A stretch of DNA of 64,000 nucleotides from positions 126,497 through 190,496 of the forward strand of contig JAENYE010000003.1 in assembly GCA_016841955.1 (NCBI GenBank). Direction: 5' to 3'. This document shows, one piece after another, positions 39,494-43,583 of the stretch. Source of the DNA: Methanobacteriota archaeon (GTDB lineage Archaea; Halobacteriota; Methanomicrobia; Methanomicrobiales; Methanoculleaceae). Numbering within the stretch: position 1 is the stretch's first letter; each line of letters opens with the position of its first letter. The position numbers were made by a program, and so were the translations under genes. The notes beneath the pieces are model-generated. The model was given only the letters and a program-made list of their open reading frames with translations, had not been told where the DNA came from and did not search any database.

Positions 39494-40516
39494 ATGACGG
39501 ACGGCCCGGGCATGCAGGATTTTGAGCCTCCCGGCGGGGACCGGTCGCCGGAAGGGGCCGTGGAACGGCGGACGGAGATCACGAGGCATGCGATCACGTT
39601 CACTCTGCTGGCGATCCTCACGGGCTCCTTCTGGCTCGTGGCCCTGATCTACCCGGAAGTCTCCCTGGTAAGGCTCACTCTGTCGCTTTTCTCGATCCTG
39701 ATCATCTTCTCCGTTTACTCCGTCATCCGGATCATCGCCGTCCGACAGATCCGGGGTAGAGAGACACGCTACTCATTCCGGCGGGCGGCCTCGATCCTGT
39801 ACTTCGTCACTGTCATCATCGTCCTGCTCCGCATCTGGGTCGACACGAACTACATCTTCGTCGCCTACGGGATCATCGGGGCCGGCATCGCCATCGCCCT
39901 GCAGGATCTCTTCAAGAACTTCGTCGGCGGGATCCTGATCATCTTCGCCCGCACCTACCAGGTCGGGGACCGTATCGAGATCAGCGAGACGATGGGCGAC
40001 GTGATCGATATCGGGATCCTCACGACGAGAATCCTCGAGATTCACGCCCGGGATGTGAAAGGCGACCAGGCGACGGGCAGGATCGCCGTCGTCCCGAACG
40101 GTGACGTGATATCGTCGCGGGTCTTCAACTACACGATGGACCACAGTTTCGTCTGGGATGAGATATCCATCCCCGTCACCTACGGATCGGACTGGCAGCG
40201 GGCCGTCTCCCTCTTCCTCGACATCGTGCGCCGGGAGACCGCGGTGACGGCCGGACAGGCCGAGCGGGAGATAGAAAAGATCGGCGAGCGCTACTACCTG
40301 CCGAAGAGAGATGTGGAGCCGTCCGTCTACCTGACCCTCACCGACAACTGGATCGCCTTCGATATCAGGTACGTGACCGAGGTCCGGAAAAAACGGGTCA
40401 CAAAAGACGACCTCTCCCGCAAACTCCTGGATGCGGTTGAAGCGACCGATGGTATCACCATCGCCACCGAGAACATCATCGTCTACGACGGCGGCCCGAC
40501 CGGGGAGGCTGCATGA
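39494..40516 (+). CDS. mscS: mechanosensitive ion channel, MscS family
   Basis: This 340-residue protein has four hydrophobic segments. The last, GIIGAGIAIALQDLFKNFVGGILIIFARTYQVGDRI, is the pore-lining helix with the Gly/Ala pattern and the QD-x-x-x-N motif of MscS (residues 124-160). The beta domain and a C-terminal alpha/beta domain follow. It opens in response to hypo-osmotic shock. It overlaps corA by 4 nt, so the two are co-translated. Confidence 0.9.
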   Translation: MTDGPGMQDFEPPGGDRSPEGAVERRTEITRHAITFTLLAILTGSFWLVALIYPEVSLVRLTLSLFSILIIFSVYSVIRIIAVRQIRGRETRYSFRRAASILYFVTVIIVLLRIWVDTNYIFVAYGIIGAGIAIALQDLFKNFVGGILIIFARTYQVGDRIEISETMGDVIDIGILTTRILEIHARDVKGDQATGRIAVVPNGDVISSRVFNYTMDHSFVWDEISIPVTYGSDWQRAVSLFLDIVRRETAVTAGQAEREIEKIGERYYLPKRDVEPSVYLTLTDNWIAFDIRYVTEVRKKRVTKDDLSRKLLDAVEATDGITIATENIIVYDGGPTGEAA

Positions 40517-41520
40517 CCGACACTGCCCGCGCACGACCGGTCACCGTCACGGTCATCGATTACGACGAGTCCCGCTTCGACGAGCGGACCTGCACCCGGC
40601 CCGGGGAGATCCGGACCCCTGCCCTCCGCCCGGCGGTCACCTGGATCGACGTCGACGGCGTCCACGATATCGGGATGGTCCAGGCAGTCGGGGACGCTGT
40701 CGGGATCCATCCGCTGACCCTGGAGGACATCGCGAATACCGGCCAGCGGCCGAAGATCGAGGACTACCGCGATTACCTCTACGTTGCAGTCCGGATGCTC
40801 GCTCCCGACGACAACGGTGAGTTCCGGAGCGAGCAGGTCAGCCTGGTGCTCGGGAGAGGCTACGTCGTATCCTTTCAGGAAGAGCCGGGCGACGCCTTCG
40901 AGCGCATCCGGGAGCACCTGCGTGCGGGAGCCGGGCGGCTCCGGCGCGAGGGGGCGGATTACCTCTTCTACGCCCTGCTGGATGCGATTGTCGACGGCTA
41001 CTTTTCCGTGATCGAGGTCTTCGGGGAGCGTATCGAGGCGGTCGAGGAGGAGGTGGTGGCAGACCCGGACCGCGAGACCCTGCAGGCGATCTACGCTTTA
41101 AAGCGGTCCCTGGTTGCGCTCCGGCGGTCGGTCTGGCCGCTCCGCGACGTGGTGGCGGAACTCGAGCGGGGCGACTCGCCCCTGATCCTTGAGTCGACGC
41201 TCGTCTACCTCCGGGACGTCTACGACCACACCATCCAGGCCGCCGAGACCGTGGAGACCTACCGGGATATGATGTCCGGGACCCTCGACGTCTACCTATC
41301 GAGCCAGAGCAGCCGGATGAACGAGATCATGAAGGTCCTCACCATCATCGCCACCATCTTCATCCCGCTCACCTTCATCGCCGGGCTCTACGGCATGAAC
41401 TTCGCATATATGCCCGAAATCAGGCATCCCTGGGGGTATCCCGCGGTCCTCGCTTCGATGGCGGTCGTCGCAGGCATCATGCTCCTCTACTTCAAAAAGA
41501 AGGGGTGGATAGGGCGGTGA
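40513..41520 (+). CDS. corA: CorA-family magnesium/cobalt transporter
   Basis: This 335-residue protein imports Mg2+ and possibly Co2+. The cytoplasmic funnel is the first 270 residues; the C-terminal two helices contain the signature YGMNFAYMPE (about residues 296-305), then VLASMAVVAGIMLLYF. The last residues KKKGWIGR are basic as usual. It follows mscS, which suggests joint response to osmotic or ionic change. The coupling is visible; the shared role is inferred. Confidence 0.93.
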   Translation: MTDTARARPVTVTVIDYDESRFDERTCTRPGEIRTPALRPAVTWIDVDGVHDIGMVQAVGDAVGIHPLTLEDIANTGQRPKIEDYRDYLYVAVRMLAPDDNGEFRSEQVSLVLGRGYVVSFQEEPGDAFERIREHLRAGAGRLRREGADYLFYALLDAIVDGYFSVIEVFGERIEAVEEEVVADPDRETLQAIYALKRSLVALRRSVWPLRDVVAELERGDSPLILESTLVYLRDVYDHTIQAAETVETYRDMMSGTLDVYLSSQSSRMNEIMKVLTIIATIFIPLTFIAGLYGMNFAYMPEIRHPWGYPAVLASMAVVAGIMLLYFKKKGWIGR

Positions 41521-41644: not shown

Positions 41645-41900
41645 ATGAAAAACAGACTCACGGACTCTCTTGATGCGGCGATAGAACGCGGCCGCGCCAG
41701 TCTCGACGCGAGGATGTGGGCACTCGCCGGGAAACTCGCCTACGCGGATACGGCATACGCCCTCCCCGTGACCTGCGCCGTCAACCGGAATTGCCGTGCG
41801 GGACGCGGACGGAGCGCGTGAAGCGTACCGGCAGTCCGGCAACAACCTCCTCGTCGCCTGCGAGTGCCTGATGACCGGCGAAGGCCGGAGATCCTCCTGA
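41645..41900 (+). pseudogene. remnant of an acetyl-CoA synthase/CODH beta-subunit N-terminus (acsB-like)
   Basis: A frame from ATG 41645 reads ERGRASLDARMWALAGKLAY followed by ADTAYALPVTCAV. That second part recalls the DTAYYLPV motif in the N-terminal domain of bacterial-type acetyl-CoA synthase. The frame then breaks: moving by one base at about 41790 restores IAVRDADGAREAYRQSGNN and LLVACECLMTGEG, up to a stop at 41898-41900. The rest of the roughly 700-residue protein is missing. The match to AcsB is from memory of the family and was not searched. Confidence 0.5.
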
Positions 41901-42218
41901 TCGTGAGCGAACCCGGGGCCCGCGGGATGCGGACCGCCGGCAGTATCCGGGACCTCGCGGAGTCGCTCGGCCTCTCGCGGGAGGATGATCTTCCTCGTCG
42001 TCAACCGGGACCGGGGTGGTGCCGCCGCAACAGGCGATCTCCCCCTCATCACCCGTATCCCGGAAGACCCGGCGGTCGAGGAGGCGGAGGACATCACGAG
42101 CGCGGCACCGTTCGCGACGGAGTCGACAACAGGAAGGCCCGGTAATGCCGCCGGATCCGGCAGCGATCTGATATCCAGCCCGGGGCGCCCACCGGCACGC
42201 CACGACCCTTTTTTGTAG
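41888..42218 (+). pseudogene. remnant of a CooC-like CODH maturation ATPase
   Basis: From 41888 one frame reads EILLIVSEPGARGMRTAGS, then IRDLAESLGLS. After a break near 41978, another frame continues MIFLVVNRDRGG, then LITRIPEDPAVEEAE. Together these follow the C-terminal half of CooC/MinD-type ATPases (VVSEPS..G..TA.RI..LA..L, then V.NR, and IP.DP.V.EA). The P-loop half is missing. It overlaps the acsB-like remnant, so a large deletion probably joined the two. Assignment is by pattern memory. Confidence 0.5.
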
Positions 42219-42242
42219 CGGGAATGCCAACACTTCTCCATT

Positions 42243-43583
42243 ATGGCAATCCATCCCATCGACTACCGGTACGGCACCCCCGAGATGCGTGCCGTCTGGA
42301 GTGAGGAGAATCGGTTCCGGGCGATCGTCATGGCCGAAGTGGCGCTGGCCCGTGCCGAGGCCGTGCACGGGATGATTCCCCGCGAGGATGCGGAGACGAT
42401 CGCGATCTCTGCGCCGGAAGCAAGCCTCGAACGGGCGAAGGAGATCGAGGCCGAGATCAACCACGACATGATGGCGATCGTCAAGGCCGTCACCGAGGTC
42501 TGCGGCGACGCGGGCCGGTGGATCCACTACGGCGCGACCTCGAACGATATCCTGGACACGGCGACCGCCCTGCAGGTCCGTGACAGCCTCGCGCTCATCG
42601 AGGAGAAACTGGGCAAACTTCTCTGCGTGCTCCTCACCCGGAGCGCCGAGACCAAGACCCTTGTCTGCGCCGGCCGCACCCACGGGCAGATCGGGGTCCC
42701 GACCACCTACGGCCTCCGGTTCGCGATCTGGGCGAGCGAAGTCTCCCGCCACATCGAGCGGCTCCGCCAGATGCGCTCACGGGTCGTCGTCGGGCAGCTC
42801 ACGGGAGCGGTGGGGACCCAGGCAGCGCTCGGGGATGCCGGTATCGAGATCCAGAAGACGATGATGGAGTTCCTCGGGATCCGGTCGGTGGACGTCTCGA
42901 ACCAGATCATCTCGCGGGACAGTTATGCGGAGTACTTCATGTTCCTCGCAAACGTCGCGACAACGCTCGACAAGATCGGGCTCGAGGTCCGGCTGATGCA
43001 GCGCTCGGAGATCGGAGAACTTGCGGAAGCGTTCGGGAAGAAGCAGGTGGGCTCGAGCACCATGCCCCACAAGCGCAACCCGATCAAGAGCGAGCAGGTC
43101 TGCGGGCTCTCCCGGATCGTGCGTTCCGCGGTCGAGCCGGCCCTGTCGAACAACGTCCTCTGGGACGAGCGCGACCTGACGAACTCCTCGCCCGAGCGGG
43201 TGCTCTTCCCCGAGGCGTCGGTGCTGACCGACCACATCCTCAAAGTGATGATCGATGTGATGGAAGGCCTCGAGTTCAATAAAACAAACATCCGGAAGAA
43301 CCTGATGATGCTCAGAGGGGTGAATCTCGCCGAGTCAGTGATGATCGACCTGACGAAGCGGGGCATGAACAGGCAGGAAGCCCACGAGGTGATGCGGACG
43401 GCGAGCATGCAGGCCCTCGCCGAAGACCGGGACCTTGCCGAGGTGCTCGCCGAACGGCCGGAGGTCACCCGGTTCGTCACCCGCGACGACCTCGACGCCC
43501 TCCTCGACCCGGACGCCTACATCGGGACTGCGGTTCGGCAGGTGGAACGCCTGGTCGAGAAACTCCTGCCGCTCTGCCGGTGA
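42243..43583 (+). CDS. purB: adenylosuccinate lyase
   Basis: This 446-residue enzyme acts twice in purine synthesis, releasing fumarate from SAICAR and adenylosuccinate. The signature GSSTMPHKRNPIKSEQ (about residues 274-289) is complete. The catalytic His of RTHGQ is at about 146, and the SNDILDTATALQ stretch lies at about 101-112. The start ATG at 42243 fits the family MAIHPIDYRYGTPEMRAVWS. It stands immediately after the decayed CODH/ACS region. Confidence 0.95.
   Translation: MAIHPIDYRYGTPEMRAVWSEENRFRAIVMAEVALARAEAVHGMIPREDAETIAISAPEASLERAKEIEAEINHDMMAIVKAVTEVCGDAGRWIHYGATSNDILDTATALQVRDSLALIEEKLGKLLCVLLTRSAETKTLVCAGRTHGQIGVPTTYGLRFAIWASEVSRHIERLRQMRSRVVVGQLTGAVGTQAALGDAGIEIQKTMMEFLGIRSVDVSNQIISRDSYAEYFMFLANVATTLDKIGLEVRLMQRSEIGELAEAFGKKQVGSSTMPHKRNPIKSEQVCGLSRIVRSAVEPALSNNVLWDERDLTNSSPERVLFPEASVLTDHILKVMIDVMEGLEFNKTNIRKNLMMLRGVNLAESVMIDLTKRGMNRQEAHEVMRTASMQALAEDRDLAEVLAERPEVTRFVTRDDLDALLDPDAYIGTAVRQVERLVEKLLPLCR

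Follow-up and report, generated by a model that had tools for sequence, protein, structure and literature searches.

Genes and gene remnants between corA and purB

The window, a stretch of 64,000 nucleotides, comes from a 9-contig assembly with long contigs that is 99.47% complete. Translation in all frames and comparison with relatives leave no intact gene between its corA-type transporter gene and purB. The interval holds the two ends of a gene cluster that is complete in relatives, namely the start of acsB and the end of cooC (Table 1).

Table 1. Features of the corA-purB interval in the window, and related features at the same site in other genomes
Feature	Position	Strand	Basis or remark
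corA-type transporter gene, left flank	40513..41520	+	G012 and G027 have it on the same side of their intact operon
acsB 5' remnant, codons 1-80	41645..41885	+	alignment to the intact acsB of G012 and G027
Deletion junction, AGGC	41882..41885	+	breakpoint comparison with G012, G027 and G008
cooC 3' remnant, codons ~147-216	41882..42088	+	alignment and tblastn
Eroded cooC tail and intergenic DNA up to purB	42089..42242	+	many small indels; alignment to G012
purB (adenylosuccinate lyase family), right flank	42243..43583	+	in relatives, to the right of the complete operon
~100% identical operon block	L063 4966-12966 against L062; L064 against L065		pairs of different Methanoculleus species
~4 kb stretches between cooC (or corA) and purB	L060 2531-6638; L064 12381-16488; L065 12979-17086; L077 3313-7084

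A tblastn search with the intact AcsB and CooC of Methanoculleus sp. SM3-B2 (G012) as queries finds the remnants within positions 41645-42089. This genome carries the closest relative of the window's purB, with 95% protein identity, which places the window in Methanoculleus. AcsB is matched in two frames, over residues 1-47 (87% identity) and 47-80 (94%), and CooC is also matched in two frames, over residues 147-181 (89%) and 183-216 (82%). The best bit scores are 80 and 70 for AcsB and 61 and 56 for CooC, far above the controls, 1,000 order-1 Markov resamples of the interval, which gave at most 29 and 25. Alignment to G012 and G027 locates the break of frame in the acsB stub at one extra A at 41783/41784, and alignment likewise places one extra base near 41980-41986 in the cooC stub. 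A preliminary description of this DNA had proposed an acsB-like N-terminal fragment with one frameshift and a CooC-like fragment with another, to be checked by such a search, and both fragments are borne out. The two pieces abut at the junction instead of overlapping head to tail, and recognisable cooC stops at about 42088, short of the end at 42218 given there.

Pfam is weak or silent on the fragments: the N-terminal piece gives only a sub-threshold match to CODH_A_N, and the search with the CooC piece gave no relevant match. The case is therefore built on relatives rather than on family models. At the DNA level, bases 1-241 of the stretch beginning at 41645 match relatives at up to 93% (G008); for bases 238-444 the highest identity is 89% (G027, G012 and G008). 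What remains of acsB would not serve as an acetyl-CoA synthase (ACS) gene, since it is frameshifted and limited to codons 1-80, the catalytic domains having been deleted. Substitutions in this stub number 5, 5 and 13 at the three codon positions. This is a third-position bias of the kind seen between intact copies, and indicates that the loss is recent.

The intact operon and the deletion

The preliminary description also suggested comparing the purB-corA interval in relatives, and the comparison reveals an intact cluster whose two ends are matched by the two fragments. In G012 and in the isolate DJKA123_ANT-F21_bin.24 (G027), the arrangement corA-[acsB-acsD-acsC-acsV-mesB-cooC]-purB is complete at the place where the window has its remnants. 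This agrees with the earlier proposal that an ancestor had a bacterial-type ACS module with its maturation ATPase near purB, and the alignments demonstrate the loss by deletion and frameshift that was postulated with it.

The genes of the G012 operon overlap or sit within ~12 bp of each other, and so are probably co-transcribed. Its AcsB scores 902.6 bits against NF040764 (cut-off 800), as a full-length bacterial-type alpha/beta ACS. The A-cluster cysteines, C-x2-C-x8-C-x9-C plus CGC, are present in all 18 loci that have a complete acsB, with all six cysteines kept. AcsD and AcsC together are the corrinoid iron-sulfur protein (CoFeSP). In AcsV the Pfam Fer2 domain and the RACo linker, middle and C-terminal domains are all over cut-off, while the score against NF040756 is 547 bits, where the family cut-off is 800; the protein is thus predicted to be of the corrinoid reductive activator type, with RACo domains. 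For the CooC of relatives, the best match among solved structures is CooC (3kje, E 2.8e-19), ahead of MinD, and the gene would accordingly encode a CooC-type maturation ATPase rather than a MinD-type one.

The fifth gene has no match in NCBIfam or Pfam. It has the zinc ligands H218, C220, D239 and C314 (numbered as in G012) at about the spacing of MesB (PMC7857596, PMC7005905), and all 18 loci in which this region is complete keep them; its product is predicted to be a MesB-type methionine synthase. One criterion for MesB joins a score of at least 173 bits to DET0516 with co-occurrence with AcsC/AcsD; it is the co-occurrence that is seen here, mesB adjoining acsC/acsD in every locus inspected. 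In G021 (L187 4511-7258) there is a 927-aa open frame in which the acsV match ends at residue 574 and mesB starts at residue 44, possibly a small deletion or a fusion. We infer that the lost operon carried out acetyl-CoA synthesis or cleavage at the A-cluster, with the corrinoid protein connecting this reaction to methionine synthesis.

When the genus was searched at the DNA level, the two stubs matched separate positions, ~7.4 kb apart, in each relative. Collinearity of the window with G012 and G027 runs from corA up to position 41885, and resumes at 41882 to continue through purB. Between these breakpoints lie, in the relatives, the rest of acsB, the genes acsD, acsC, acsV and mesB in this order, and the beginning of cooC. 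The 4-bp junction stands in place of 7,447 bp of the relatives, so that 7,443 bp net are missing with respect to either genome; in the breakpoint comparison, G008 is off by one base from these two. The left flank matches up to and including AGGC, and the relatives have AGCC at their right flank, which leaves 4 bp shared imperfectly and 1 bp strictly. With only one base strictly shared, the deletion looks like an end-joining or replication-slip event, not recombination between long repeats.

On the basis of these observations, we conclude, with a probability of roughly 95%, that the stretch is the pseudogene scar of a six-gene operon between corA and purB, cut by one deletion. The six genes would have sat between corA and purB in an ancestor, or in the donor of the allele. 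A single deletion with little or no homology would then have removed the 7.4 kb that run from codon ~81 of acsB as far as codon ~146 of cooC. Both stubs would afterwards have been broken by single-base indels, this probably being the order of events. The scar would now yield no functional product.

Searches of the contigs of the window's own genome gave no match elsewhere to CdhC/AcsB, the CdhD family (AcsC/AcsD), prismane/CO dehydrogenase (CODH) or MesB, and CooS is absent from them. The genome retains MesA and two acetyl-CoA synthetases. The loss may have been tolerated through this MesA-type methionine synthase, which may make MesB dispensable, and through the acetyl-CoA synthetases, which could use external acetate. 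The two synthetases (G000:C5:217789-219606 and G000:C3:530426-532234) are over the family cut-off; each match contains one TAA, which probably sits at the C-terminal end, because the open frames reach 644 and 633 aa.

Distribution, probable exchange and alternative origins of the scar

An intact acsB is found in 14 of the 35 genomes of the genus. These six genes are found in identical order in this genus, in G035, which belongs to another genus of the same family (its contig begins inside acsD), and in genomes from three further families of the order. The cluster of G052, a member of another family, is again located between corA and purB. Its presence at this site is therefore old; what the window records is a loss rather than a partial gain. 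On a purB tree, which is a single-gene tree, the pattern of the operon needs at least 4 changes, and most simply 7.

The deletion is seen in one genome of the species, and the same scar is absent from all other sampled genomes. A tblastn search around purB at 18 operon-free loci of the genus found no comparable scar, giving one chance-level cooC match in G014 (L185). The 30-base matches to the stretch in G015 and G032 are on contigs other than those that bear purB. Many operon-free relatives have the order corA, mscS-type channel, second corA paralogue, purB (L071-L077, L181-L184). In G003, G010, G009 and G020, ~4 kb of sequence separates cooC (or corA) from purB, which marks the corA-purB interval as a variable site.

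The operons of two genome pairs, G012 with G027 and G010 (UBA430) with G009 (UBA303), are ~100% identical in DNA, while nearby stretches of corA and purB are mostly 75-97% identical. These identities point to recent exchange of the operon block between species. Loss and exchange have thus both to be reckoned with, and a tree of one gene is unable to tell them apart. Since the locus seems to have been exchanged, the deletion could have arisen in another lineage and the broken allele been imported by homologous recombination through the corA and purB flanks. We consider this improbable, because the stub's identity to its nearest relatives, 88-93%, is like that of the flanking genes, and none of them matches it exactly. 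It is hardly credible that a chimeric assembly or binning artefact joined the two gene ends: the assembly is a draft, but there are further frameshifts in both stubs, synteny holds to the left and to the right, and searches of the assembly found nothing else of the operon. Equally hard to credit is a new small fusion protein, as the ORFs of 72, 93 and 77 aa that overlap the stretch each read AcsB or CooC residues for part of their length and then leave the frame.

Possible function of the lost operon

The operon of relatives contains no CODH gene (CooS/CdhA), and a canonical CODH/ACS reading of it was rejected for this reason. The preliminary description had called the locus a decayed CODH/ACS locus; the decayed ACS stands, but the CODH does not, the lost cluster being an ACS/CoFeSP/MesB operon. 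The 14 genomes of the genus with intact acsB include G024 (closed) and G012 (99% complete), in which no CODH gene was detected. The prismane-family search gave zero matches in G012, and a single match in G024, of the size of a hybrid cluster protein. This prismane gene (G024:C1:871574-873150) is read in two pieces, which suggests a frameshift. CODH is also undetected in G008 and G027, which have the operon intact, though these assemblies are less complete and the absence is correspondingly weaker.

Losses of CODH/ACS, or partial sets of its genes ('partial deletion'), have already been published for Methanoculleus and other methanogens (PMC8621161). The CODH/ACS-deficient methanogens described there (Methanoculleus, Methanobrevibacter, Methanothermobacter Met2 and others) use acetate as a carbon source, and the loss was called recent and polyphyletic. 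The loss and the partial ACS sets in Methanoculleus agree with what is seen here. That work dealt with presence and absence of subunit genes, whereas the loss here has left a scar whose breakpoints are mapped. In the relatives, the 'partial' set forms a conserved operon of six genes, not a random remainder.

A close parallel is Dehalococcoides mccartyi, in which AcsB splits acetyl-CoA with release of CO and the methyl group ends up in methionine, by an incomplete Wood-Ljungdahl pathway and a core methionine synthase (PMC7005905, PMC7857596). AcsB, CoFeSP and the putative MesB likewise occur without CODH in at least G012 and G024, and the MesB zinc ligands H, C, D and C are conserved. Unlike D. 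mccartyi, the hosts are archaea with the methyl carriers of methanogenesis and, in the window genome, with MesA. The same operon also encodes an activator of the AcsV type and an ATPase of the CooC type, and many operon-bearing relatives have a separate CooS. Compared with bacterial AcsB (solved structures 1ru3, 6ytt, 1oao), the AcsB of relatives is over the alpha/beta equivalog cut-off of NCBIfam and has the A-cluster cysteine pattern, but its N-terminus is ~30-50 residues shorter and there is no CODH partner gene in the operon. It has been published that MesB clusters with Wood-Ljungdahl genes, and that there are methanogens which have MesA as well as MesB (PMC7857596). New here are the mapped deletion scar, the uniform CODH-less make-up of the six genes in the order, and the signs of block exchange.

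We tentatively hypothesise that the operon is a CODH-independent module, in which AcsB would cleave acetyl-CoA or capture free CO, and CoFeSP would pass the methyl group to MesB for methionine. It would not serve carbon fixation, and would have been exchanged and repeatedly lost, the window being one recent loss. A more doubtful possibility is that it was a working Wood-Ljungdahl carbonyl module served by a CooS encoded elsewhere, and that the deletion was part of a loss of autotrophy. CooS-type CODH (TIGR01702) is indeed located elsewhere in many genomes of the genus, several of them with the operon. It also occurs in operon-free genomes, being patchy across the genus independently of the operon, and this, its absence from the window genome, and the intact operons without detected CODH in G024 and G012 argue against such a module. 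So does M. bourgensis E02.3, which requires acetate although genes annotated CODH/ACS are present (PMC8540584); this need fits a role of the operon other than carbon fixation.

The presence/absence pattern known in Methanoculleus thus becomes a mappable event, with a scar that is unusually readable. What has been called a partial CODH/ACS set in these methanogens is a conserved operon for ACS, CoFeSP, the activator, MesB and CooC, and lacks CODH. Since the lost set resembles the CODH-less route from acetyl-CoA to methionine of D. mccartyi, losing the operon need not mean losing autotrophy. If the operon makes methionine or captures CO, and does not fix CO2, little can be concluded from its loss about autotrophy, and another explanation would be needed for acetate auxotrophy in the genus.
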